This document shows, in pieces, positions 1-12,463 of a stretch of DNA of 12,463 bases. The notes beneath the pieces are model-generated. The model searched no databases. It was given only the letters and a program-made list of their open reading frames with translations, and had not been told where the DNA came from. The translations under genes and the position numbers were made by a program. The DNA lies in NCBI GenBank assembly GCA_019242065.1, contig JAFAWJ010000840.1:1-12463 (forward strand). Reading direction: 5' to 3'. Source of the DNA: Chloroflexota bacterium. Its GTDB lineage: Bacteria; Chloroflexota; UBA6077; CF-72. The first letter of the stretch is position 1; every line of letters begins with the position of its first letter.

Positions 1-677
1 CGCTGCCAGTGGAGACGATAGGGTCCGCCGCATTTTTCGTTGACGAAGCAGTGGCCAGCGACGTCGGTTGCCAGATGCGTCATCCAGCCAAGAGCAAAGG
101 CGCGCTGGGCGTCCGTCGTCGCGTTGGTCCACAGCTGATGGGCGAACTCGTAGGTTTTGCGGTAGTGGAACATGTCGCTCCAGAAAAACGTCTGCTCGTC
201 AAACCCCTGCGGCACGCCACTGGAGAGAAGACCGAAAATGTCGTACTGGCGGGTGATCAACACCAGCACGAAGTTGATCAGATACTGGATCGCTTCCCCG
301 AACATCGACGACAGCTCATCCGACAGGCCGCCGCTCAGGGAGCTGAACTCGTCGGACAGATTGTCGGCGATGGGGCCGAGAATGTCTTCGTAGGGACCGA
401 GAAAGTTGTCGTCCCACCAGGTGAACAGCTCGCGGATCAGGTTGGCTGCGCCCCAGAGCGCAGTGCCGGCTGGCGGCTTGAAGTCCGGCAGGAGAAAGAA
501 GATGTCCGGTCCAATTGCACCGAGGTAGAAGTACGCGGGATTTGCCGTAGCAATCGCCTGCAACTGAGCCGCGGTGAGGCCAGTGTCACTGGCGAGAATC
601 GCGCCCGCGTTGGCGTTCTTGTCCAGGTTGCCGATCGCCTGGCGCGCGGCATCCATGTGAATGTACCAGCCCGGCAT
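1..677 (-). CDS. Zinc-dependent phospholipase C-like protein (3' end beyond window)
   Basis: The minus-strand frame is open from an ATG at 677 to the left edge, giving 225 residues without a stop, so the C-terminus is missing. It resembles the zinc-dependent phospholipase C / S1-P1 nuclease-like fold (Pfam Zn_dep_PLPC type): a His near the N-terminus (WYIHMDAARQA, H7), a GPD motif in YLGAIGPDIFFLLPD (residues 51-65, D58), and the FALGWMTHLATDVAGH stretch (residues 194-209) with H201, D205 and H209 as likely metal ligands. The family hydrolyses phospholipid head groups or related phosphoesters. The substrate here is unknown. There is no clear signal peptide, although many relatives are exported. 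A hydrophobic stretch lies at about residues 128-147. A G-rich ribosome site (seven G at 682-688) lies just upstream and supports the start. It is the last visible gene of the four-gene minus-strand cluster, 99 bases after the membrane protein gene. Motif match is good; exact activity is uncertain. Confidence 0.75.
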   Translation of the reverse strand, partial: MPGWYIHMDAARQAIGNLDKNANAGAILASDTGLTAAQLQAIATANPAYFYLGAIGPDIFFLLPDFKPPAGTALWGAANLIRELFTWWDDNFLGPYEDILGPIADNLSDEFSSLSGGLSDELSSMFGEAIQYLINFVLVLITRQYDIFGLLSSGVPQGFDEQTFFWSDMFHYRKTYEFAHQLWTNATTDAQRAFALGWMTHLATDVAGHCFVNEKCGGPYRLHWQ

Positions 678-701
678 TCCACCCCCCCTTCCAGGCCGCC
701 A

Positions 702-741
702 CACTAGTCCAAATGCCGCGGACTGTCAATGCCGGCTAGTG
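702..741. repeat. Imperfect inverted repeat between membrane protein and PLC-like genes
   Basis: In the 99-base gap, CACTAG (702-707) pairs with CTAGTG (736-741), and AGTCC (706-710) pairs with GGACT (720-724). The two pairings overlap and give alternative small hairpins. No U-tract follows on the minus strand, so this is not an obvious terminator. It could slow transcription or protect the mRNA between the two genes, or be chance. The rest of the gap holds nothing else I recognise. Confidence 0.3.
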
Positions 742-776
742 AGTGGTTGGCGGTGCGCGCCAGATCCGACTGGGCC

Positions 777-1751
777 TTACGTCCCTGGCACCGCCGTGGT
801 CGTCGATGTGGTCGTCGTGGAACCGGGTCCACTTGTCGCTTGTTGCTTGTACTGCTGAATCGCTTGGATCAGCTCATGTGTCGGATTCGAACCCAGGCCC
901 ATGACCAGACCAGTCAGCGGCACGCCTGCGCTCCACACTACGGAGCCCGTGCCAAGCGTCAATGGCACGCCAAGCGCCAGGAACATGTCCAGGCGGAGTA
1001 CCAGGGCGATCGCGTAACCCAGGAGGCAACCGACCACCAGGCTGATCATCCGTCGCGGGGGATTGTCTTGAAACGTGGTCAGGAAGCTGTTGACATCGTT
1101 GGTCAGCGACGTGGCCAGGTCGATTCGGGAATCGAGGTGCTGCCCGAGGTCGGGATGCGCGATCAACACGCTATTTATACGGCTGGCCGACTCTGTGAGC
1201 AGATACTGGAGCTTTTGATCGTTGCCCAGCTTTGTGTTCCGTACCTCCATAGCGAGTGCAGTCAAGTTGCCTGAAAGAGCGCTGGTTGCTTGAAGCGCGG
1301 CATCTGCCTTGGCCTTCAACTCTGCCTCATTGCCGGCCAGCGTCTGAAGTTTCTGGCTCGCGTTGTTCAGATTCGTCACGTACGGGGTGACTAATGCCGC
1401 GAAGTTGGCCAGCCAGTCATTGATCTTGTCGTGCACAAGGTAGAATGGCCACCAGCCACCGGTCGTCGAGTCGACGACGCTCCAGAAGGCTTCGAGCACG
1501 CGCTCGATGACCACCGCGGCGCCGCCCACGATTGCCAGGACCGCGGTGCCGGTTGCGGCGGCGGTTGCAAGGTTCCCTGTGCTGGAGCCGGAGCCCGGCG
1601 GCGTCGGAGCCAGCACAAAGCCGCCCAACAGCACGCCAACGATGACGACAACGACCAGCAGCACGAAGCTCGTCTGCATCGGGAACTCGCGCCGCAACTC
1701 GACTACCGTCGGACCGGTGGGCGGAGTCGTGGCACTCGGAGAGGCGCTCAT
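777..1751 (-). CDS. Membrane protein with about four TM segments and a coiled-coil-like middle, unknown family
   Basis: The protein is 324 aa from the ATG at 1751. A TTG five codons upstream (1766) could start the same frame, but the ATG sits seven bases after GGGGGA and is preferred. Layout: a short Ser/Thr/Pro-rich N-terminus; a hydrophobic span at about 28-48 (SFVLLVVVVIVGVLLGGFVL); an Ala/Gly-rich span at about 63-87; a soluble Ala/Leu/Lys-rich helical part at about 125-225; two more hydrophobic spans at about 235-252 and 256-286; the motif GLGSNPTHELI at 285-295; and a Thr-rich tail. The spans suggest both ends of a helical middle are anchored in the cytoplasmic membrane. I do not recognise the family. 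From memory, similar G-x-G-S-x-P-x-H ends occur in small actinobacterial and phage-like membrane proteins. It lies between the MBL hydrolase and the PLC-like gene in the same direction. A membrane anchor, sensor or pore for its neighbours is inference only. Confidence 0.8.
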   Translation of the reverse strand: MSASPSATTPPTGPTVVELRREFPMQTSFVLLVVVVIVGVLLGGFVLAPTPPGSGSSTGNLATAAATGTAVLAIVGGAAVVIERVLEAFWSVVDSTTGGWWPFYLVHDKINDWLANFAALVTPYVTNLNNASQKLQTLAGNEAELKAKADAALQATSALSGNLTALAMEVRNTKLGNDQKLQYLLTESASRINSVLIAHPDLGQHLDSRIDLATSLTNDVNSFLTTFQDNPPRRMISLVVGCLLGYAIALVLRLDMFLALGVPLTLGTGSVVWSAGVPLTGLVMGLGSNPTHELIQAIQQYKQQATSGPGSTTTTSTTTAVPGT

Positions 1752-1758
1752 AGCGAAA

Positions 1759-1764
1759 TCCCCC
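1759..1764 (-). promoter_or_regulatory. Ribosome binding site choosing the ATG at 1751
   Basis: On the minus strand GGGGGA lies seven bases before the ATG at 1751. The alternative TTG at 1766 would place this site inside the coding sequence and has no equally good site of its own. A possible -10 (TATAGT, 1792-1797) overlaps the end of the upstream gene but has no convincing -35. Confidence 0.55.
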
Positions 1765-1792
1765 AACTGGTCAGGTCGCGAACAGCTTTCGA

Positions 1793-3082
1793 CTATAATT
1801 TGATTTCATAGTAGAGGTCGGTGGCAGCGTCTAACGGGGCGACCGCCGGGATTTCTTCGTCGGCCCGAACGACGCCAGCCCTGGCTTTGGTTTTAAGCGC
1901 ATCCAACAACTCCGGTAATGGCATGTTGTCCCAGTGCTTCTGGAGAGCCATCTGGTGATTGACAGGCACCATCGCGACGTCCAGCGAGGTCATCGTCTCC
2001 AGTCCGTGCTCCTTGAGCGTCGCGTTGAAGCTGCCGTGGTGCCCGACTTTGTACATGATGGTGCGCTTGAGCAGGTCCGGACCGGACACTGTTCCGTCAG
2101 CCACATTCCAGGTAAGGGATTGCCATGACTCCCAATTGCCAACCTGGGCATCACCTGGAAACAGCAGCACGTCGCCGTTCTCGAGTTCCAGGGCAAGTAC
2201 CAGGCAGGTGTTGTTGGTTGCGCTATCCAATTGCAGCGCGATCTGAAACGAATCCCCCAGCCACGCCGCGTCAATGCCACGCCAGGAATCAGCCCCCCAG
2301 TACATTCCTCCGAAGAACGTCATTTGCTGTGCAACTGCGACGGGGATCGTGTACAGCGCACTGAACGGAGCTTCTGGGGTATCCGCGGTGAGCACCGGAT
2401 CCAGATCGCCTTCCATAGCGGCAAATGCCCTTGCGTACGTCTCAGAGCTGCCGGACGGCAGGATCTTGCGGATGAGATGCGGATCGCGAGGAGGCCCCAT
2501 GACGTACAGCCGCACGTGTGGATCGTTCAGCTCCACCGGTGGATCATCCGGTCGACAGTACCGCACATTGGGCGAGAGTTTCCGTACACGGTCTAGAGCC
2601 GCCGCGGTCGTGTTCTCACCCTGTCCGTCACCGGCGAACTCGAGCAGCGAGCTCGTCGCCTGCGCCTTGTCAGTATCCCCGGCGAGCTGCAGACGCTCCA
2701 CCGCGAGACGCAAACTGGCCAGGGCCTGGTGACGTTCGCCTGCCAACTGCTTGGCGAGCTCGTCTGTCGGGTCTTCAGTCCATGCCAACCAGACGCTGTC
2801 GACGGTGATGCCTGTCCATTGGGCGGACGCCTGCAGAAACCCCGAAAGGTGGTCCCAGTGTTCGTGAGTGGCCAGCAGCAGGTGCAATTTGCCACCAGTG
2901 ACCGCCGCAACATCTGAGACCACCTTGGTCATCTCGGTTTGAGCATTCGCGGTTCCGAGGACGACTCCACAATCAATCAAGATGAAGTAGTTGGATCCAT
3001 CCGCACGCGGCAACGTGATCAGGAAGCAGTCGCCCAGTCCCTGGCGATACATTCGGATCTTCACTCTAAAATCAGCCGGCAC
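1793..3082 (-). CDS. Stand-alone ComEC-type metallo-beta-lactamase-fold hydrolase
   Basis: This 429-aa protein carries a metallo-beta-lactamase fold. The N-terminal YRQGLGDCFLITLP (12-25) and FILIDCG (33-39) match the start of ComEC/Rec2-like domains. The metal-binding HxHxDH motif is HEHWDH at 73-78. VLLFPGDA (305-312) supplies the bridging Asp (D311), and KVGHHGS (345-351) is the late motif typical of ComEC-like enzymes. Family members hydrolyse phosphodiester or other ester bonds, often in nucleic acids. The substrate here is unknown. No membrane span or signal peptide is seen, so unlike ComEC itself it is probably cytosolic. It is longer than a bare MBL domain because of an insert at about 100-290 between the metal motifs. 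The start is GTG, supported by an AAGGAG eight bases upstream. The gene begins 23 bases after the double-protease gene and is followed after 41 bases by the membrane protein, which suggests co-expression. Confidence 0.85.
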   Translation of the reverse strand: MPADFRVKIRMYRQGLGDCFLITLPRADGSNYFILIDCGVVLGTANAQTEMTKVVSDVAAVTGGKLHLLLATHEHWDHLSGFLQASAQWTGITVDSVWLAWTEDPTDELAKQLAGERHQALASLRLAVERLQLAGDTDKAQATSSLLEFAGDGQGENTTAAALDRVRKLSPNVRYCRPDDPPVELNDPHVRLYVMGPPRDPHLIRKILPSGSSETYARAFAAMEGDLDPVLTADTPEAPFSALYTIPVAVAQQMTFFGGMYWGADSWRGIDAAWLGDSFQIALQLDSATNNTCLVLALELENGDVLLFPGDAQVGNWESWQSLTWNVADGTVSGPDLLKRTIMYKVGHHGSFNATLKEHGLETMTSLDVAMVPVNHQMALQKHWDNMPLPELLDALKTKARAGVVRADEEIPAVAPLDAATDLYYEIKL

Positions 3083-3090
3083 TCGCTCAG

Positions 3091-3096
3091 CTCCTT
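3091..3096 (-). promoter_or_regulatory. Strong ribosome binding site for the MBL hydrolase GTG start
   Basis: AAGGAG (minus strand), eight bases before the GTG at 3082 and within the 23-base gap after the double-protease stop. It fixes the GTG as the start and suggests efficient translation from a shared mRNA. Confidence 0.65.
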
Positions 3097-3105
3097 CTGG
3101 ATTGT

Positions 3106-6100
3106 TCAGAATGCCCGGTGAAGGAGGGCAAATGGTTCGGCGTCGTCATCAGACCTGGTGAAGTAGCTCGCATGCAGTGGGTCTAACCTGAGCTGCGCGA
3201 AGGCTTGTTGTTTTTCGAACCGGACCTGCTGATCGACACGCTTGAGCACGGTGTAGCGCACTTGTTTCTGTCGAAGGTCGACTAGAAGCGTGCATCCGCC
3301 ACGAAATACTCCGCCGGGTCCAGTGTCGGGATGGAAGCTCTGCGTGATCTCGATGACCACGTCGGACTGCAACTGTCCGTCGGGTCCCACCCGTCGGCAC
3401 GGCCGAACTGAATGAACCTCGATCGGGTGGAGGGTGCCAGCCACGTTACCGATCTGACGCGCACCTGGAGCACGACTCAGCCCGAGCACGTCGAGCTCCT
3501 CGTCGGAGACCTGGGTCGAGTCGTGCAGCCACTGGTGCAGAAGAAAGGCATTGTGGCGGGATGACGTATACGCCTGTCTGCGATCGGACATCAGGTCCCA
3601 ATCGAGCGACAGTTGCTCGAGAACCCTGGCGGTGTTCCGCAGCGGCAGCGGCGGCGGCTCCCAGGCCAGACTATCGACGGACAATGACTTCACGTTCGCC
3701 GCGTAAATGCCACGAGAGCGGAAAGCGGAAACGAACGCGACACGGTACCCGCGCTGGTCTTCAGGCACGAGGTCGCGATCAGCGGTGATCAGCGCACGCA
3801 GATATTCGCCGAACGTAATGTCGACCGGCGGACAGTAGTCAAGTGCTCGAACGCAGATGTCCAGAACGTGTGCCGCCGCTTTGACAGCCTCGTCTGCCAG
3901 TCGCTCGACTAGATCCACGGAGATCGCCCCGCGTGGCAGAATCCCGCTGCCGCGCGTAGCTAGCCGGATGAGATCTGCTCCGCGGCTGCGATAGATCTGC
4001 AGGAATGCGTCGAAAACCGCGGCGACCAGCACAGAGCCGAGATCGTGCGGTTCCGTCGTGGATGTGTAGTCGGTCGTAGATGGCGTCTTGTGTGTGAAGT
4101 GGTTCGTGCTCTTGTCAAAGCTGCCGATCGCGTTTCGCAGGCCTGCGTACTTCCCGATCGCCTGCCCAAACTGTACCGCGAGCTCCACCAGCGTATTGTC
4201 CATACTGAGATCGCCACGCGTGGTATTGATGGCCTGCTTGAGCGCACCCGGAATTGAAAAGTGCTGAAATAGTGCGACAATGTCAGCAAATGCCTCATGG
4301 AAGGCCAGCACATCCGGGTTGGTGGGCTCCAGGAAGCGGCGGTGCAGGCCATCGAGGAGCGCGTGTGTCGACTCGTGCGCCACGATATCGGAGGACAGTG
4401 CTGTGAAAACGGTTCCGCCTGGCACGACGCTCGGCGCGTCGTCGGCAGACGCGAAGAAGTAGCCCATCAACAGCGCTCTTTGTGTCGGGCTGTAGTAGGC
4501 ATTCGCCGCGCGGAGTGCGTGAGGGTAAATCCGAAGCCGTTGGACGTACTGCTCCTGTGTATGGCCGTCAACTGTCACCAGTCGTGGTGACCAGAGGGCA
4601 CGCCGGCCTAATGCTCGTTCGAAGTGTTCGATGGTGCGCATGGCGACGGCGTACACCATCTGTTGTTGGAACTGTGGATTGCTCTCCTGCGGATTGAGCC
4701 CGTCAGCCACCAACAGGCTCGAATCGTTGAGATCGACCGGCGCATAGCAGCATTGGCTGGAGGGGTCCACATCGACGATCTCGAGGTATTCGCCCACAGG
4801 CCCCGGCTGGAGCCCATCTTCCCAAATCACGTCCAGCACCGCCTGGTTTATTCCCAGCGTCTCCAGTTGAGTGCCGAGCGACGGATCGTAGGCATACACC
4901 CGCAAACGCCGCCGCGTCGGCCGCGGCGGCTGAGGGCTGGTCGCATGCGCGAGGTGGAGTCGTTCGACGGCTGTGAGCGGTTGCACCGGTGATGGCACGG
5001 GCACAAGCGGCGGACGCGACGCGGCGCCAAGCGCAGTGCGCAATGTCTGTGACGCATTCGGATGCTCGATCAGGGCCTCCCTCAGTCGCTCCAGATCGTC
5101 CCTGGGCAGGCTGGCCGGATCGACACCCGGGTCGGGCAGAATTTGCTCGATCCGCGCCGATTGGGACAGCTGCAAAGCCTCTAGCTCGAGCATTTGCTGG
5201 CGGGTGTCCGTAGCGGCCAGGCCGACCCCAAGGAGAACGCGCAGGAAGGAGAACGACGCGGAATCAGGCGCCTCTGCCCGCAATTGCGACTCTGACGCCG
5301 GCTGCTGATTGAGGGCGTCATGCGTCCGTACCTCGCCACGACCGAGGCGCGTCTGATCGCTCGGGTGGGCACTGTCGAACAGTGCCTTGCGCACCGCCTC
5401 CACGCGCATCCAGGGCGCCGAGTATTGGTCGAGCTTGGACCTGTTCTGCTGAATCCATATGGCGGCCGCCGCGGCTATTTGTGGTGTAGCGCACGAGGTG
5501 CCGGCACCATTGAGATCGATCGTTTCATCGCATCCAAACCGAGCCCACGGTGCGTTGGGGGTATACGCGGCAAGCGCCGTTCGCATCTTGCTCGTGGGCC
5601 CGTAGTTGCCCGCCATGAGCCCCGAGGTCAGGTCCGCGTACGCCGTGTCGTTAGCCATGACGCCGCAAGCAGCGACAACTCGATTGAAACGCGCCGGAAA
5701 GACGATATTGCGCGTGGGCAAGTTGTCGATGTTGTTTCCAGCAGCGGTGACCACGAAGACGCCCGCCTCATACAGGGCGTTCACCGCATCGGCCCAGGTG
5801 GCCGAGGCGAGGCCGCCCATACTCATGGTGATCACGTCGACGCGCGTAGATGGATCCGCGCAGAGGTCGCGCACGTGCAGGAACGCGGACGCGATTGCAC
5901 TGTTGTGAAAAAGCACCACGCTGTTGGCAACGCGCAAAGGTACGACCTCGAGGAATGGCGCAGCGCCGATCGCCGCGAGGCCAGGCGTTGCTCTCCCCGC
6001 CAGGACCCCGATCGTCCCGGTGCCATGCCCCAGGTTTGCACCGATGCCGGTTGATTTGTCGCTGGCGTCGTCTGGTCTGTCGGAATCGACGAAATTGCGT

Positions 6101-6609
6101 TGGAGCGTGCGATTGAGGAACTCGGGTAGTGCGATGTGCGACGGGTCATAGCCCGTGTCACAGTGCGCCACTCTTGCCGCGCTGACACGGTCGACGCTGC
6201 CAAGTGCCGCCACGGCATCGGCGAATTGACCGTGCACGGCATCTTGAAACCACAGCGGTGCGGGCCCAGCCGGGAAGCGAGTGTCCTGTGGCGCGGCCAC
6301 CTCGCACGGCTGCGTAAGAGCGAGCCCGGCTTCGGCCGGTGGCCCGACTAGCCACGTTTGTGCCAGGTCTGGCTCGAGAAACTGGGGCGCCCCTCCCTGG
6401 ATCCCAAGTCCCTGGTCCAGCAGTTGATGACACATATCCCACACATGCAAATCCAACTCGGCGTCCGTGCTGGTAAGCAGGTGCCATGTCGGACCGCCAC
6501 TCTCGGGCACGCCCTGGAAAAGCGGTTGAGCAGACAAGGGCAGACGAGTCCCCGCGATGAGCAGCGTCGCTTGAGGCAAGGCAGCGCGTGTCTTGACCAG
6601 AATCCGCAC
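3106..6609 (-). CDS. Double protease: S8 subtilisin-like domain fused to thermolysin-like HExxH metallopeptidase
   Basis: The protein has 1167 aa. The first 130 residues have no recognised domain and could act as a prodomain or adaptor. An S8 serine protease domain follows at about 140-430, with all catalytic parts: Asp151 in CDTGYD, His195 in GHGTGTIGVLAG, oxyanion Asn292 in TAAGNN, and Ser372 in GTSCATP. After a helical, Pro-rich linker (about 440-565) comes a gluzincin-type metallopeptidase at about 570-960. Its zinc motif is HESTH (745-749), the third ligand is Glu772 in FHEAFADI, and a thermolysin-like late His is H855 in EPHDLGSV. The last 200 residues are unassigned, with an OB/beta-like Val-rich stretch at about 1060-1125. 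No signal peptide or TM segment is seen, which is unusual because most S8 and M4 enzymes are secreted. The start is GTG with GGGGGGA just upstream. It is the first gene of the minus-strand cluster. Both active sites look intact. Targets are unknown. Confidence 0.85.
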   Translation of the reverse strand: MRILVKTRAALPQATLLIAGTRLPLSAQPLFQGVPESGGPTWHLLTSTDAELDLHVWDMCHQLLDQGLGIQGGAPQFLEPDLAQTWLVGPPAEAGLALTQPCEVAAPQDTRFPAGPAPLWFQDAVHGQFADAVAALGSVDRVSAARVAHCDTGYDPSHIALPEFLNRTLQRNFVDSDRPDDASDKSTGIGANLGHGTGTIGVLAGRATPGLAAIGAAPFLEVVPLRVANSVVLFHNSAIASAFLHVRDLCADPSTRVDVITMSMGGLASATWADAVNALYEAGVFVVTAAGNNIDNLPTRNIVFPARFNRVVAACGVMANDTAYADLTSGLMAGNYGPTSKMRTALAAYTPNAPWARFGCDETIDLNGAGTSCATPQIAAAAAIWIQQNRSKLDQYSAPWMRVEAVRKALFDSAHPSDQTRLGRGEVRTHDALNQQPASESQLRAEAPDSASFSFLRVLLGVGLAATDTRQQMLELEALQLSQSARIEQILPDPGVDPASLPRDDLERLREALIEHPNASQTLRTALGAASRPPLVPVPSPVQPLTAVERLHLAHATSPQPPRPTRRRLRVYAYDPSLGTQLETLGINQAVLDVIWEDGLQPGPVGEYLEIVDVDPSSQCCYAPVDLNDSSLLVADGLNPQESNPQFQQQMVYAVAMRTIEHFERALGRRALWSPRLVTVDGHTQEQYVQRLRIYPHALRAANAYYSPTQRALLMGYFFASADDAPSVVPGGTVFTALSSDIVAHESTHALLDGLHRRFLEPTNPDVLAFHEAFADIVALFQHFSIPGALKQAINTTRGDLSMDNTLVELAVQFGQAIGKYAGLRNAIGSFDKSTNHFTHKTPSTTDYTSTTEPHDLGSVLVAAVFDAFLQIYRSRGADLIRLATRGSGILPRGAISVDLVERLADEAVKAAAHVLDICVRALDYCPPVDITFGEYLRALITADRDLVPEDQRGYRVAFVSAFRSRGIYAANVKSLSVDSLAWEPPPLPLRNTARVLEQLSLDWDLMSDRRQAYTSSRHNAFLLHQWLHDSTQVSDEELDVLGLSRAPGARQIGNVAGTLHPIEVHSVRPCRRVGPDGQLQSDVVIEITQSFHPDTGPGGVFRGGCTLLVDLRQKQVRYTVLKRVDQQVRFEKQQAFAQLRLDPLHASYFTRSDDDAEPFALLHRAF

Positions 6610-6767: not shown

Positions 6768-7112
6768 ATGACGTCCGACCCGATGCTGCAGAAGATTGTT
6801 GACGCGCTCGAAGAAATTCGCGCCGAAGAGTTCGACTACGAGATCCTGCAGGCCGCGGCCGACGTCATGGGCGAAGACGTGGTCACCAGCTGGCGCCCAT
6901 CGCTGGCCTACCTGCCGCCCGAGCAGCGCGATGGCGAGTACCACGTCACCGTGTATGCCCAGGGTGCGTGCGAATCGTGTCCGATCAAACAGTCACACGT
7001 CGGCAGCATCGAGCCCAAGGTCCGTGCCCTGGTCGGCGCCGACAACGTGTTCGTCCACGACTACTTCGACTGGTTCGACTGGGGCACCACCCCGTCAGTC
7101 GGCGACGGCTGA
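6768..7112 (+). CDS. Small NifU-like CxxC protein
   Basis: This 114-aa protein has the segment YAQGACESCPIKQSHVGSIE (63-82), close to the iron-sulfur scaffold motif of NifU C-terminal domains (GAC-x-x-CP followed by a helix). Cys68 and Cys71 are the likely cluster ligands. NifU-like proteins assemble or carry Fe-S clusters and hand them to target enzymes. The N-terminal helix (residues 6-20) fits the family, but the middle (20-60) diverges and the usual Gly/Asp-rich strand before it is not clear. The end is rich in aromatic and acidic residues (DYFDWFDW, 98-105), which is unusual. It stands alone on the plus strand, diverging from the protease operon and converging on dnaK. A Rieske Fe-S enzyme lies 4.6 kb away, but no link is shown. 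It could instead be an unrelated thioredoxin-like or zinc-binding CxxC protein. Confidence 0.6.
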   Translation: MTSDPMLQKIVDALEEIRAEEFDYEILQAAADVMGEDVVTSWRPSLAYLPPEQRDGEYHVTVYAQGACESCPIKQSHVGSIEPKVRALVGADNVFVHDYFDWFDWGTTPSVGDG

Positions 7113-7115
7113 GCC

Positions 7116-7141
7116 AAAAACGTCGGCCAGTCATGCCGACG
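7116..7141 (-). terminator. Second intrinsic terminator for leftward (dnaK) transcription
   Basis: CGTCGGC (7121-7127) and GCCGACG (7135-7141) form a perfect 7-bp stem with a 7-base loop. On the minus strand the stem is followed by TTTTT (7116-7120). It would catch dnaK read-through before it runs antisense into the NifU-like gene. Confidence 0.6.
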
Positions 7142-7165
7142 CCGCCACATTCTGTTGCGCAAGTG

Positions 7166-7193
7166 ATGGCGGCCAGTATTTACCGGCCGCCAT
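7166..7193. repeat. Hairpin repeat copy A (ATGGCGGCC stem)
   Basis: ATGGCGGCC (7166-7174) pairs perfectly with GGCCGCCAT (7185-7193) across a 10-base loop. It is nearly identical to copy B at 7213-7239: same stem, loop starting AGT and ending CC in both. No U-tract follows on either strand, so by itself it is a poor terminator. It may come from duplication of copy B or belong to a REP-like family. Confidence 0.7.
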
Positions 7194-7205
7194 ACGCTGT
7201 TTGCG

Positions 7206-7239
7206 AAAAAAAATGGCGGCCAGTGTTGCCGGCCGCCAT
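7206..7239 (-). terminator. Intrinsic terminator of dnaK (hairpin copy B)
   Basis: ATGGCGGCC (7213-7221) pairs with GGCCGCCAT (7231-7239) across a 9-base loop. On the minus strand the stem is followed by a run of T (7206-7212), a textbook rho-independent terminator just after the dnaK stop at 7262. Confidence 0.8.
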
Positions 7240-7256
7240 CGCGTTCGCGAATTTTT
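7239..7256 (+). terminator. Possible terminator for the NifU-like gene
   Basis: TCGCG (7239-7243) pairs with CGCGA (7246-7250) across a two-base loop and is followed by ATTTTT on the plus strand. The loop is tight, but copy B just upstream could act with it, giving a two-way terminator between the converging genes. Confidence 0.4.
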
Positions 7257-7261
7257 AGGGC

Positions 7262-9166
<1,905 letters not shown>

Positions 9167-9244
9167 CGTCCTCTCTACCTAGCCTTTCTTCGTTCGCCGT
9201 GGGCGGGCGCAACCGTGGATGTGAAATGGGATGTAAGCATGTGA

Positions 9245-9643
9245 CTATTGATGGGCTCCCAGAGTTGCGAACGCGGCGCGCAGTGGAGCCTGGACGCGGC
9301 GTTGAAGGGTAACCATATCGGGTGTTTGATCGATTGCACTCGAGATTTCACTGAGCAGTTGGGTTAAGTCTAGAGCCATCTGAACGCCGGCAAGATTCAT
9401 CTCGCGTTCCTCGACGAGATGTTTGATCTGCTGCAGACGGCGGATATCTTCCAGGGAGTACAGGCGAGTGCGGCCGGGCGTACGGCTGGGCTCGAGGAAG
9501 CCGACGCGCTCGTACTTGCGCAGGGTGGTGGGATGCATCTCGACGAGTCGAGCCGCGACACTGATGACGTAGAGTGCATCCGAGGCACGCGAGCGGGCGC
9601 CGCTCGGCGTGCTGGCTGAAATTTGATGCGGGTCGCGATACAT
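9245..9643 (-). CDS. hspR: MerR-family heat-shock repressor, HspR-like
   Basis: A 132-aa MerR-type regulator. After a short variable N-terminus (1-23), the winged helix-turn-helix starts with YVISVAARLVEMHPTTLRKYE (25-45), the HspR form of the MerR motif. It continues through GFLEPSRTPGRTRLYSLEDIRRL (48-70) and a dimerisation helix containing EREMNLAGVQMAL (79-91). HspR binds inverted repeats (HAIR) and represses chaperone genes, often with DnaK as co-repressor. It is upstream of dnaK on the same strand and diverges from grpE by 31 bases, so it probably controls both. I searched by eye for the classic HAIR element (CTTGAGT-N7-ACTCAAG) around 9640-9680 and 9167-9244 and did not find it, so the operator here may differ. 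The ATG at 9643 is the only in-frame start before the HTH. GGCGGA upstream is a weak ribosome site. Confidence 0.9.
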   Translation of the reverse strand: MYRDPHQISASTPSGARSRASDALYVISVAARLVEMHPTTLRKYERVGFLEPSRTPGRTRLYSLEDIRRLQQIKHLVEEREMNLAGVQMALDLTQLLSEISSAIDQTPDMVTLQRRVQAPLRAAFATLGAHQ

Positions 9644-9657
9644 TTTTTGTCCGCCAC

Positions 9658-9686
9658 ATCATATACTTTGGGCAATGTCGGTGCAA
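9658..9686 (-). promoter_or_regulatory. Promoter of hspR-dnaK, with -35 inside grpE
   Basis: On the minus strand TTGCAC (9681-9686) and TATGAT (9658-9663) are separated by 17 bases. The -10 matches consensus at five of six positions and the -35 at three. The -35 lies within the first codons of grpE. Transcription would start near 9651, leaving only about 8 bases before the hspR ATG. Confidence 0.5.
9662..9667 (+). promoter_or_regulatory. -10 element of grpE, suggesting a leaderless mRNA
   Basis: TATACT matches the -10 consensus at five of six positions and ends seven bases before the grpE ATG at 9675. The expected transcription start (about 9674) would give an mRNA with essentially no 5' leader, and no good ribosome site is seen. 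It overlaps the hspR -10 by two bases. A clear -35 is lacking (TACATT at 9639-9644). Confidence 0.45.
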
Positions 9687-10268
9687 CAAGATCAACCAGC
9701 AACCCCTACCCCTCCAACCAACACCAACCCTCACCCTGATGGGCAGCCCGAGGGCCAGGCCAGGCCTGACCCCGAGGCGCCCGCCGCCACCGACGAGCTC
9801 GAGACCCTGCGTGCCGAGCTCGCCGAAATCGAACAGAAGGCTGACGAGTACCTGCGTCTGGCCCAGCGTACCCAGGCCGACTTCATCAATTACCGTCGCC
9901 GCATGGACGAGGAGCGCGCCCAACAGTCGCGCGACGCCAGCCTGTCGGTGCTGCAGCGCCTGTTCCCGATCCTGGACGACTTCGAGCGCGCCATGGCCAG
10001 CGCCTCGGACGCCGAGCGCCAATCCAGCTGGGGCCAGGGCCTGCTGCTGGTCGAGCGCAACCTGCGCGGCCTGCTGGCCGCCGAGGGCGTCGAGATGATC
10101 GAGGCCGAGGGCGCCGACTTCGACCCTCGCCTGCATGAGGCACTGGGTTCAGCGCCGAGCGCGCGGGTGCCTGAAGGCCACGTGCTGCACGTGGTGCGGC
10201 AGGGCTACCGCAAGGGCGACCGCGTGCTCCGCCCAACGCAAGTGATGGTGGCCCAGCGACCCGGGTGA
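9675..10268 (+). CDS. grpE: GrpE nucleotide-exchange factor
   Basis: A 197-aa co-chaperone that releases ADP from DnaK and resets its cycle. The first 40 residues are Pro/Gln/Thr-rich and probably disordered. A long dimerising helix or coiled coil follows (about 41-100, including ADEYLRLAQRTQADFINYRRRM at its core). The C-terminal beta domain carries the GrpE signature FDPRLHEALGSAP (153-165), with VLRPTQVMVAQ near the end. Length and motif order are normal. It is transcribed away from hspR-dnaK instead of lying downstream of dnaK. It converges on the lipoprotein gene with only 21 bases between stops, and no terminator is visible there. Confidence 0.97.
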   Translation: MSVQQDQPATPTPPTNTNPHPDGQPEGQARPDPEAPAATDELETLRAELAEIEQKADEYLRLAQRTQADFINYRRRMDEERAQQSRDASLSVLQRLFPILDDFERAMASASDAERQSSWGQGLLLVERNLRGLLAAEGVEMIEAEGADFDPRLHEALGSAPSARVPEGHVLHVVRQGYRKGDRVLRPTQVMVAQRPG

Positions 10269-10289: not shown

Positions 10290-11666
10290 TCAGTGATGGT
10301 TGGCCGATGCGCCGAGCTGGCTCAGCCCGGTCACAGAGCGCAGTGGGCCGCGATTCAACGCCTGCGAATTGGATCGCGGCCGCGGCGTTGGCAGCGTCAG
10401 ATACTGGCCCGGGTAGCGGTCCACGATGGCCACCGCCAGCGTGTCCGCGGGCTTCTGCATCTCACGCGCGGCCTCGTGTAGGCGCGCGTACGCCGTCGTA
10501 AAGTCATGTGACTGGAACGCATCCGCGGCCGTGAGCATCGGCTGATCGCTCGCCCGCAGCTGCTGGGTCAACAGGCCAGGCGCCAGCAACGAGTTGGCGC
10601 CCGACAGCAGCGCATCGATCTGACCACGCGACTGGTCGATCTCCGCGCTGGCCTGGTGCCGATCGCCGCCCGAAGCGTCTGACACCAGCGCCGCCGTCTG
10701 CGCGCGCAAGCGGTCGGCCACCCCCGTCCCCACATCCGGCGTATACATGCTCCCGAGCTGGTTGCCGACGTCGTCAGCAGCCAGATTCGCCTCGGCCGTG
10801 TACGCCTGCGCATCGGCCGGGCGATTGTCGGCGGCCGCGTCGAGCGCCGCGCCGCTCGAATACAGGTGCTCGAGCAGGCTGCTGTTCAGATGCAAGCGAA
10901 CGTCGATGTCGGCGCCGGTCGTGGTTTGCGGCAACAGGTTGGGCAGCTGGCTGGCCATAGCAGCCGCGAGCGGCCGACTCAGGTCGTCACCGCTGGTGAC
11001 CAACGTCGCCAGTCGCTGCGTCGTCTGACCCGTGTCGTGACTGGTCATGCTGTCGGCCAGCGCCAGCTCTTGCTGGGTGCGTTGTTGCAGGACCGTGTCA
11101 GCCGCGTCTTTCGAGAAATCGCCTGTGGCGAGTTCGTCGGCGATGATCGTCCGCTGCTGGTCGAGGTCAGCCGGTGGGGTCGGCTGGGGCGCTTCGCTGT
11201 AGTCGATCAGGTCGGTGGTCTGCGCACGCCAGGCGTCGGCCAGGATCTGAGCGGTGGTCTGGCCCTTCAGGTCGCCGACGATTTCGGCCAGGGTGAGAGT
11301 GCTGTCGTCGAGCATGGTCGAGGCGCCGATGAGCTCGTCGAGGCGCGCGGTACTCGCGGCTTGCATGACCGCGGCGGTGAGATACGCGTTTTCCTGGAGG
11401 GACTGGTCCAGGCTGACACGTAAGTCGGCACCGCTACGCCCAGCGAGCACAGAGAGAGGCAGGCTGGCCGGGCGCGGCGAGGCGGCCGCGCGCACGACAG
11501 TGGACGGCAGCGGCTGCGGTGCGACGGCCTGGACGCGCACCGCCGCGGGCGTCTGGGTTGGCACCGGCCTCGGCGGCACTGGCACCGGCGTGGGCGCCTG
11601 GGACCCAAGTGGGGAGCAAGCCGTGGCGAGCAGACACGCGCACGCGGCGACAAGCGCCCTCCTCAC
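10290..11666 (-). CDS. Lipoprotein with two related helical repeats
   Basis: A 458-aa protein. The N-terminus is a lipoprotein-type signal: MRRA, then a hydrophobic stretch, then LLATAC with Cys17 as the lipidation site. The lipobox is slightly off consensus, with Ala at -3. A Pro/Thr/Val-rich linker follows (22-65), as in surface lipoproteins that need a spacer. The rest is Ala-rich and helical. Two units look homologous: about 79-160, starting GADLRVSLDQSLQENAY and ending near WRAQTTDL, and about 250-330, starting GADIDVRLHLNSSLLEHLY and ending near LRAQTAAL. From memory such repeats occur in secreted proteins of Bacillota and other Gram-positive-type bacteria, sometimes with copper-amine-oxidase-like domains. 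Their function is unknown. The GTG start (11666) fits the signal peptide, and a stop lies six codons upstream in frame. It lies 55 bases downstream of the dioxygenase gene on the same strand. Confidence 0.8.
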   Translation of the reverse strand: MRRALVAACACLLATACSPLGSQAPTPVPVPPRPVPTQTPAAVRVQAVAPQPLPSTVVRAAASPRPASLPLSVLAGRSGADLRVSLDQSLQENAYLTAAVMQAASTARLDELIGASTMLDDSTLTLAEIVGDLKGQTTAQILADAWRAQTTDLIDYSEAPQPTPPADLDQQRTIIADELATGDFSKDAADTVLQQRTQQELALADSMTSHDTGQTTQRLATLVTSGDDLSRPLAAAMASQLPNLLPQTTTGADIDVRLHLNSSLLEHLYSSGAALDAAADNRPADAQAYTAEANLAADDVGNQLGSMYTPDVGTGVADRLRAQTAALVSDASGGDRHQASAEIDQSRGQIDALLSGANSLLAPGLLTQQLRASDQPMLTAADAFQSHDFTTAYARLHEAAREMQKPADTLAVAIVDRYPGQYLTLPTPRPRSNSQALNRGPLRSVTGLSQLGASANHH

Positions 11667-11721: not shown

Positions 11722-12463
11722 TTAGCGCAACGCGGTCAGCGCTGTGGCGGCACCGGTGTTCCACTCCACGTCGCGAGGCAGCACCAGCGCCGCCGAGCGA
11801 ACGCGGTAGCTGTCCGCGTTGCGCGCCTCGTACGGCACCTCGCCCCGCTCCTGCAGCGCCCGCACCGCGTCGAGCAACCGCCGCCGCATGGCGATCACCG
11901 CCAGGTCCGCGCTGCCCAGGTGCTCTGTCGTGCGATCGCACACCCCGCCCATCGACTCCTGTACGGCCAGGTCCTCCTCGCGAATCCCCCGAATACCGGT
12001 ATACGACGCCCCCGAGCGCTGCACCGCGCGGTCGATCAGATAGTCGTTGTCGCGATTGCGCAGTGGCTTGAACGTCCCGGGGTCCACCTCGGTGTGCACG
12101 CCCGTCCAGGATTCGATCTGGGCGCGCTCGGCCTCGCTCAGTGGTCGATCGGGGTGCCAGGTGACGGTGAAGCCCATCATCTGCCGGTCGTCCATGGGCG
12201 TCGCACCGGTGAACGACACCGGTGAGCCGACGGGCGACGGGATCATCGTATAGGTAGGCATCAGGAACTGGGTCATGCGCCAGTAGTACGAGTCGGACTC
12301 CGCGTCGCGGCGGGCCCCGATGAGGATGCCGTAGTCGGTGGGCAGGACGAAAAAGCGCGGCGCACGGTCGCGGGCCATGTAATTGGGCAGCGTCGAGCGA
12401 AAATCGGACGGACGGATGCCAGCGGAGTCGGCGGACGAGTTGTCGCGGCTGTGCAGGAACGAG
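11722..12463 (-). CDS. Rieske aromatic-ring dioxygenase alpha subunit, catalytic C-terminal part (5' end beyond window)
   Basis: The frame is open from the right edge to a TAA at 11724-11722, about 247 residues. An internal ATG at 12378 is not the real start, since similarity continues upstream (SFLHSRDNS at the edge). The sequence follows the phthalate 4,5-dioxygenase-like oxygenase subunits: TDYGILIGARRDAESDSYYW, WRMTQFLMPTYTMIP, FTVTWHPDRPLS, RNRDNDYLIDR, YTGIRGIREEDLAVQESMG, RTTEHLGSADLAVIAMRR and YRVRSAALVLPRDV. These enzymes use a Rieske [2Fe-2S] cluster and a mononuclear iron to hydroxylate aromatic substrates with O2 and electrons from a reductase. The Rieske domain and the His ligands of the mononuclear iron lie beyond the window. 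The substrate cannot be read from this part. The downstream lipoprotein may share its mRNA, with no functional link evident. Confidence 0.88.
   Translation of the reverse strand, partial: SFLHSRDNSSADSAGIRPSDFRSTLPNYMARDRAPRFFVLPTDYGILIGARRDAESDSYYWRMTQFLMPTYTMIPSPVGSPVSFTGATPMDDRQMMGFTVTWHPDRPLSEAERAQIESWTGVHTEVDPGTFKPLRNRDNDYLIDRAVQRSGASYTGIRGIREEDLAVQESMGGVCDRTTEHLGSADLAVIAMRRRLLDAVRALQERGEVPYEARNADSYRVRSAALVLPRDVEWNTGAATALTALR

Follow-up and report, generated by a model that had tools for sequence, protein, structure and literature searches.

A gluzincin-type protease, often fused to a subtilase, conserved beside a ComEC-type MBL-fold protein: a possible proteolytically switched effector

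We report that a double protease and a ComEC-type MBL-fold hydrolase, encoded next to each other in many bacteria, form a conserved unit of two genes only, and not of all four genes of the run in which they lie in the Chloroflexota sequence analyzed here. The rarity of signal peptides among their relatives indicates that this widely conserved pair is intracellular. Our best reading is by analogy: the pair may work like the protease/pro-nuclease antiphage pairs described in PMC12799240, as a proteolytically switched intracellular effector whose MBL protein would most likely be a DNase unlocked by the protease. We hold this reading tentatively, as somewhat short of probable.

The window (the whole stretch of DNA analyzed, 12,463 nt of contig JAFAWJ010000840.1) carries the four genes on its minus strand, transcribed in the order protease (3106–6609; 1167 aa), MBL (1793–3082; 429 aa), membrane protein (777–1766, 329 aa, or from an ATG at 1751) and PLC-like gene (3–677, or from a GTG at 704), the last being open at the left window edge. 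The preliminary description had listed four same-strand genes separated by 23, 41, and 99 bases, and the ORF coordinates confirm these gaps with starts at 1751 for the membrane protein and 677 for the PLC-like gene. Its four functional labels hold as well: the double protease combines an S8 domain found by Pfam with an HExxH...E zinc motif in its C-terminal half; the MBL hydrolase has the ComEC motif order and a Lactamase_B match; the multi-span membrane protein shows four hydrophobic segments by hydropathy (starting near residues 34, 69, 241, and 261); and the phospholipase C-like enzyme matches Zn_dep_PLPC at E 9.6e-10. No NTPase or sensor was found in the window, where the four genes were checked by Pfam. 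Upstream of the pair, positions 6768–10268 hold a NifU-like gene and the heat-shock genes dnaK, grpE, and one for a MerR/HspR-like regulator. Beyond these, 10290–11666 encodes a protein of 458 aa whose N-terminus resembles that of a lipoprotein and which matches no Pfam family, and 11722–12462 a protein with a LigXa C-terminal domain match, open at the right window edge.

The assignment of the protease rests on Pfam, on our alignments A1 and A5, and on its catalytic residues. Its subtilase domain (residues 147–420; 5350–6171, minus strand) matches Peptidase_S8 at E 1.2e-20, PDB subtilases match the S8 half from E 3.3e-9, and residues D151, H195, N292, and S372 are kept in all 78 S8-bearing alignment rows. 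The gluzincin half with the C-terminal region (residues 564–1167; 3106–4920, minus strand), which elsewhere occurs alone beside an MBL gene, contains the zinc motif HESTH (residues 745–749; 4363–4377) and the third ligand E772 (4294–4296); H745, E746, H749, and E772 are identical in 86 of 86 relatives. We call this half a gluzincin because of its HExxH...E motif, the M36 match being weak (residues 738–967, E 0.062, below the Pfam cut-off). The motif is shared with thermolysin- and fungalysin-type gluzincins (M4, M36), and the relative in locus L187 is annotated as peptidase M4; unlike those enzymes, the gluzincin half here falls below the Pfam cut-offs, and no signal-like N-terminus occurs in the family tested. 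At three loci (L002, L059, and L083) the protease or MBL reading frames look split.

Weak NCBIfam matches of the S8 half, far below cut-offs, include the peptide-maturation proteases PatA and QhpE, which would suit a processing or detoxification set in which the proteases act on a peptide or protein toxin, to mature it or to destroy it, and the MBL protein is a further tailoring enzyme. Against this stands that neither the clustered neighbors nor the directly adjacent genes include a recurrent short precursor or biosynthetic enzyme, a result to be read with the fact that our gene caller drops ORFs <60 aa, so that small peptides could be missed; we consider such a set distinctly unlikely.

The MBL protein matches Pfam Lactamase_B at E 2e-4 (21.8 bits against a cut-off of 22.7), and hhalign aligns it to four ComEC MBL domains with a probability of 81.6% (E 1.1e-5). 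Like the MBL domain of ComEC/Rec2, it has the motif order GD-LIDxG-HxHxDH-NN-GD-HHGS. Within its metal motif THEHWDH (residues 72–78; 2849–2869, minus strand), H73, H75, D77, and H78 are identical in 66 of 66 rows, and no row deviates at any tested metal-site position that it covers. Unlike ComEC/Rec2, it stands alone, has no channel domain, and carries at least about 140 extra residues between HxHxDH and NN: the HxHxDH-to-NN[TS] spacing, measurable in 65 of 66 relatives, is 203–292 residues, as compared to 57–68 in four ComEC proteins. The hhalign alignment places two insertions relative to ComEC, with rough borders, at about residues 93–160 (2603–2806) and 201–289 (2216–2482), the second containing F240, a residue shared by all 66 of the 66 rows. 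Some parts of both insertions are conserved, and other parts vary in length.

Among known families, the best NCBIfam matches of the MBL protein are Avs1a (NF041809; 31.5 bits, cut-off 420) and the anti-phage 6A-MBL enzyme (NF058524; 18.6 bits, cut-off 220), both covering the N-terminus only; it thus differs from the 6A-MBL enzyme, and also from AVAST type 1, as the four genes include no STAND NTPase. A LmuA match reaches E 6.4e-12 but spans profile positions 3–105 of 345 only, and, unlike Lamassu, the four genes include no SMC-type gene (the LmuB partner). Weak family matches extend to lactonase- and hydrolase-type MBLs, and full-length likeness to ComEC is weak; rather than a nuclease, the protein might accordingly be an enzyme for a small signal, either a phosphodiesterase or a lactonase, the two enzymes of the pair then serving one pathway with different substrates. 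We regard this as rather unlikely, given a motif order and best family matches of the ComEC/Avs1a type and a close pairing with the protease that better fits substrate and enzyme.

The pairing itself is extensive. Protein searches at E 0.001 returned at least 6540 MBL relatives and at least 3877 protease relatives. Among the best 80 of 372 confirmed protease loci kept from a scan of genome contigs (L009 and L010 being identical), the MBL gene comes next in 63, three loci end at a contig edge, and 14 have no MBL gene. The double protease is therefore MBL-free in 14 of 77 untruncated loci (L036, L040, L044, L045, L048, L050, L052, L055, L056, L065, L070, L071, L077, and L078), and can evidently act without the MBL protein. 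Together with the window locus and seven loci from plasmids, the latter located via the MBL protein, the set comes to 88 loci; with genes from our own caller, MBL follows the protease in 71 of them (directly in 70, with one gene between in the other) at a median gap of 12 bases. Of the plasmid records, counted without dereplication, all 35 in which MBL was matched (35 of 35) also show a gluzincin match upstream in the same orientation, the two matches lying 26–1602 bases apart; where the gluzincin match covers ≥58% of the query, MBL is present in 35 of 37 records. Three distant MBLs that we checked all lie beside gluzincin-type proteins, one of them annotated "serine protease".

For a second sample, we applied the gluzincin profile A8 to 397 genomes of the order to which the genome of L008 belongs; 23 of them contained strong matches (E ≤1e-95), 24 in all. 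Leaving out three seeds gave 21 loci, and as one of these, L229, is identical to the first-set locus L076, 20 were new; because A8 was built from first-set loci, the lineages of the two samples are not independent. MBL is next in 17 of these 20 (with a small called ORF intervening in L225) and missing from L234, L238, and L239; S8 is present in 6 and absent from 14, and 11 of the 14 S8-free loci have MBL. The sample includes the close pairs L226/L228 and L230/L231, the latter resembling L060 of the first set. The prospect of a neighborhood conserved across genomes was thus borne out for the protease and MBL genes. A phage-borne system was also considered and rejected: the viral contigs scanned gave no MBL and five remote protease matches, with 25–32% identity over short stretches. 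One 9.5-kb "phage" record, an unverified scaffold, carries both genes.

The two proteins have diverged in a correlated manner. Tree-distance matrices correlate at r 0.75 for gluzincin and MBL (66 pairs) and at r 0.77 for the S8 half and MBL (59 pairs), with 0 of 2000 permutations as high in either case; both correlations ignore host relatedness. In the gluzincin-half tree, eight S8-free rows lie close together, all eight with MBL, and 12 of the 14 MBL-free rows fall in one clade along with two truncated rows. The subtilase half is dispensable. MBL is usually kept where S8 is missing and is absent from some loci that have S8, which makes the gluzincin the more likely partner of the MBL protein. 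MBL-bearing hosts include Pseudomonadota, Acidobacteriota, Planctomycetota, Verrucomicrobiota, Thermodesulfobacteriota, Myxococcota, Bacteroidota, and Deinococcota; Gemmatimonadota and Actinomycetota have only MBL-free loci. Host taxa are mixed in the tree, with the window among Pseudomonadota and a Spirosoma MAG contig, possibly mis-binned, beside Falsiroseomonas. These last two loci (L053 and L067) are nearly identical copies with an upstream gene in common, which reflects either a recent transfer or a mis-binned contig. The pair is patchy: apart from the seed, 289 genomes of the class of the L008 genome yielded a single full-length MBL match and a partial one.

This distribution bears on a housekeeping role in proteostasis or stress, which the dnaK, hspR-like, and grpE genes adjoining the pair in the window would favor. 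Such a heat-shock neighborhood is not among the recurrent neighbor clusters, and patchiness, plasmid carriage, and the mixing of host taxa in the tree all argue against it; we find that role very unlikely.

As for location, neither the protease nor the MBL protein of the window has a signal-peptide-like N-terminus by a crude hydropathy test. Applied to the relatives, with starts from our own gene caller, the same test flags no protease (0 of 86) and a single MBL (1 of 66) as signal-like at the N-terminus; across all called genes >100 aa, a set that takes in the core genes and the control loci, it flags 238 of 1477. For these two enzymes, the suggestion that they lack secretion signals is upheld, and with it, given the conservation of the pair, that of an intracellular conserved unit fitting a conflict or defense role. 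Proteases, phosphodiesterases, and phospholipases are common types of exoenzyme, and a secreted nutrient-degrading set would draw on just such activities; set against the signal-peptide counts, that explanation is extremely improbable.

PMC12799240 shows by experiment that MBL pro-nucleases with two insertions are cut by a partner trypsin-like protease, upon which they degrade DNA; such protease/pro-nuclease pairs occur in Hachiman (HamM), AVAST (Avs1a), Lamassu, DRT, and caspase–nuclease (canu) loci, a caspase taking the role of the trypsin-like protease in canu. The cut sites given there, residues 118/218 and 134/234, lie on the two insertions, which are described as disordered, and further nuclease homologs adjoin other protease families; the gluzincin/MBL pair may already be among these further neighbors. 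The published pairs resemble ours in the adjacency of a ComEC-like MBL gene and a protease gene, in correlated divergence, and in having two insertions at comparable positions (here about residues 93–160 and 201–289). They differ in the protease, here a gluzincin often fused to a subtilase and there a trypsin-like protease or caspase; in the insertions, which here are partly well conserved; and in the company of the pair, which here has lipase neighbors and no HamA, STAND NTPase, or LmuA fusion. Searches of part of the literature, by title and opening lines of the abstract, turned up no paper that couples an MBL protein to a gluzincin or a subtilase, which points only weakly to novelty.

If the analogy with those pairs holds, the MBL protein would be a zinc phosphodiesterase of the ComEC type and most likely a DNase, which the insertions at its active site would keep inactive. 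An internal trigger would lead the adjacent protease, acting through its gluzincin half, to cut the insertions; the MBL protein thus released would degrade DNA, and the cell would die or stop growing, with a presumed benefit against phage. The subtilase half would be an exchangeable extra activity, a second protease step, and neighboring lipases would likewise be exchangeable additions, acting as membrane-attacking effectors. Were this correct, proteolytic activation of MBL nucleases would extend beyond trypsin-like proteases and caspases to two further protease classes and span a very wide range of bacteria. With two proteins, one predicted cleavage, and one predicted DNase, the pair is a compact test case, and its subtilase-free and MBL-free branches are natural experiments on the role of each part.

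The remaining two genes of the window fall outside the conserved unit. The membrane protein has no Pfam match, and none of its 20 further relatives lies on a contig whose length is among those given for the 120 best relatives of the protease or of the MBL protein; tblastn (E 1e-3) finds it in 0 of 87 loci, and the plasmids searched gave no match. It looks like a bystander and shows no sign of belonging to the unit. The PLC-like protein, a possible optional partner, was likewise found by tblastn (E 1e-3) in 0 of 87 loci, a negative that says little on distant PLCs because the same search missed the Zn-PLC of L045. That gene, of the same family by Pfam, lies 25 bases upstream of an MBL-free protease on the same strand and is the one other case directly beside the protease; as it is one of 16 Zn-PLC matches in 53 of the genomes, the Zn-PLC link rests on L045 and the window. 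We thus reject a conserved four-gene operon, and the proposal that the four genes form one system is not supported.

The further suggestion of a lipid target stands as a class, since in some lineages the pair repeatedly has patatins or Tle1-like lipases as neighbors. Patatins lie upstream on the same strand in L006, L012, L031, L081, L178, and L179; L186 has one downstream, again on the same strand. Those of L012, L031, L081, and L186 were confirmed by Pfam, the others taken from record annotation. Tle1-like lipases lie downstream on the same strand in L074 and L182 (Pfam) and L183 (annotation), and a PLD-like gene upstream on the same strand in L187 (Pfam). L028 has, also on the same strand, a very long upstream protein with a weak patatin match (22 bits against a cut-off of 27.7), and its sister L029 a like upstream protein by our own patatin profile, which gave 0 matches in 354 control genes but was built from these loci, so that the control is not independent. 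The same 53 genomes contain 269 patatins by Pfam (summed), and in at least two clear cases (L012, L081) plus the two weak sister cases a patatin is directly upstream of the pair; about 0.04 would be expected by chance, estimated from some five patatins per 6000 genes. Of 25 distinct Tle1-like genes in these genomes, three lie ≤4 kb from a gluzincin (G004, G603, and G609), the chance expectation again being about 0.04 by a rough estimate.

Patatin was also the commonest Pfam family in the second sample, at 6 of 150 neighbor proteins: directly upstream in L221, L222, and L232, which are close relatives (64–71% identity), directly after MBL in L236, four genes on in L224, and probably, by motif only, in L233. 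All six of these loci are S8-free. The lipase link is a genuine one within certain lineages, mainly at S8-free loci, but optional rather than general. It suggests that one protease may couple attack on DNA and on the membrane. A broader proposal, possible but more doubtful, is a phylum-spanning immune or cell-killing module in which a gluzincin, often with a subtilase, would unlock a gated MBL nuclease, a swappable lipase (patatin, Tle1-like, PLD-like, or Zn-PLC) would be a second effector under the same trigger, and the double protease would constitute a two-step proteolytic cascade in one polypeptide.

Whether defense genes lie nearby, a check that the preliminary description had proposed, received a divided answer. 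In the first contrast (18 loci, 124 proteins each), neighbors matched 108 PADLOC families as compared to 27 in same-contig controls, a difference that counts redundant models, one protein matching 14 and another 19; in the second sample, 27 families were matched among 150 neighbor proteins, and the excess was not repeated. On these counts we do not claim a defense-island excess. The first contrast excluded proteins <80 or >1500 aa, L038 (which resembles L008) and L028, and controls L145 and L154 (the latter yielding three genes); the second excluded proteins <90 or >1450 aa, another five long proteins, and the weakly matching L242, and includes seven proteins of L229 that are identical to those of L076 in the first set.

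At individual loci, RADAR genes adjoin L012, a type III methylase L051, CBASS genes L006 and L178, and TIR or SIR2 proteins L003; DUF1837 and DEAD-helicase genes, which we take to be Hachiman-like, adjoin L006 and L179. Surroundings elsewhere are metabolic, e.g. cytochrome oxidase and RuBisCO genes beside L001; the Phyllobacterium-type loci L001, L008, and L038 share one long neighborhood of cytochrome oxidase and carbon-fixation genes, with no defense island. In two Hymenobacter plasmids (L005 and L177), an SMC/AAA-type ATPase, a possible sensor, lies just upstream of an S8-free gluzincin. S1/P1 nuclease genes occur within a few kb of gluzincin–MBL pairs on rhizobial plasmids (L181, L189, and L190), and in L190 the same gene run also holds a serine protease and a non-specific endonuclease. 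Finally, two three-gene runs of similar sizes, whose first genes have alike N-termini, follow the pair in L019 (8876–11891) and the MBL-free protease in L048 (13571–16639).
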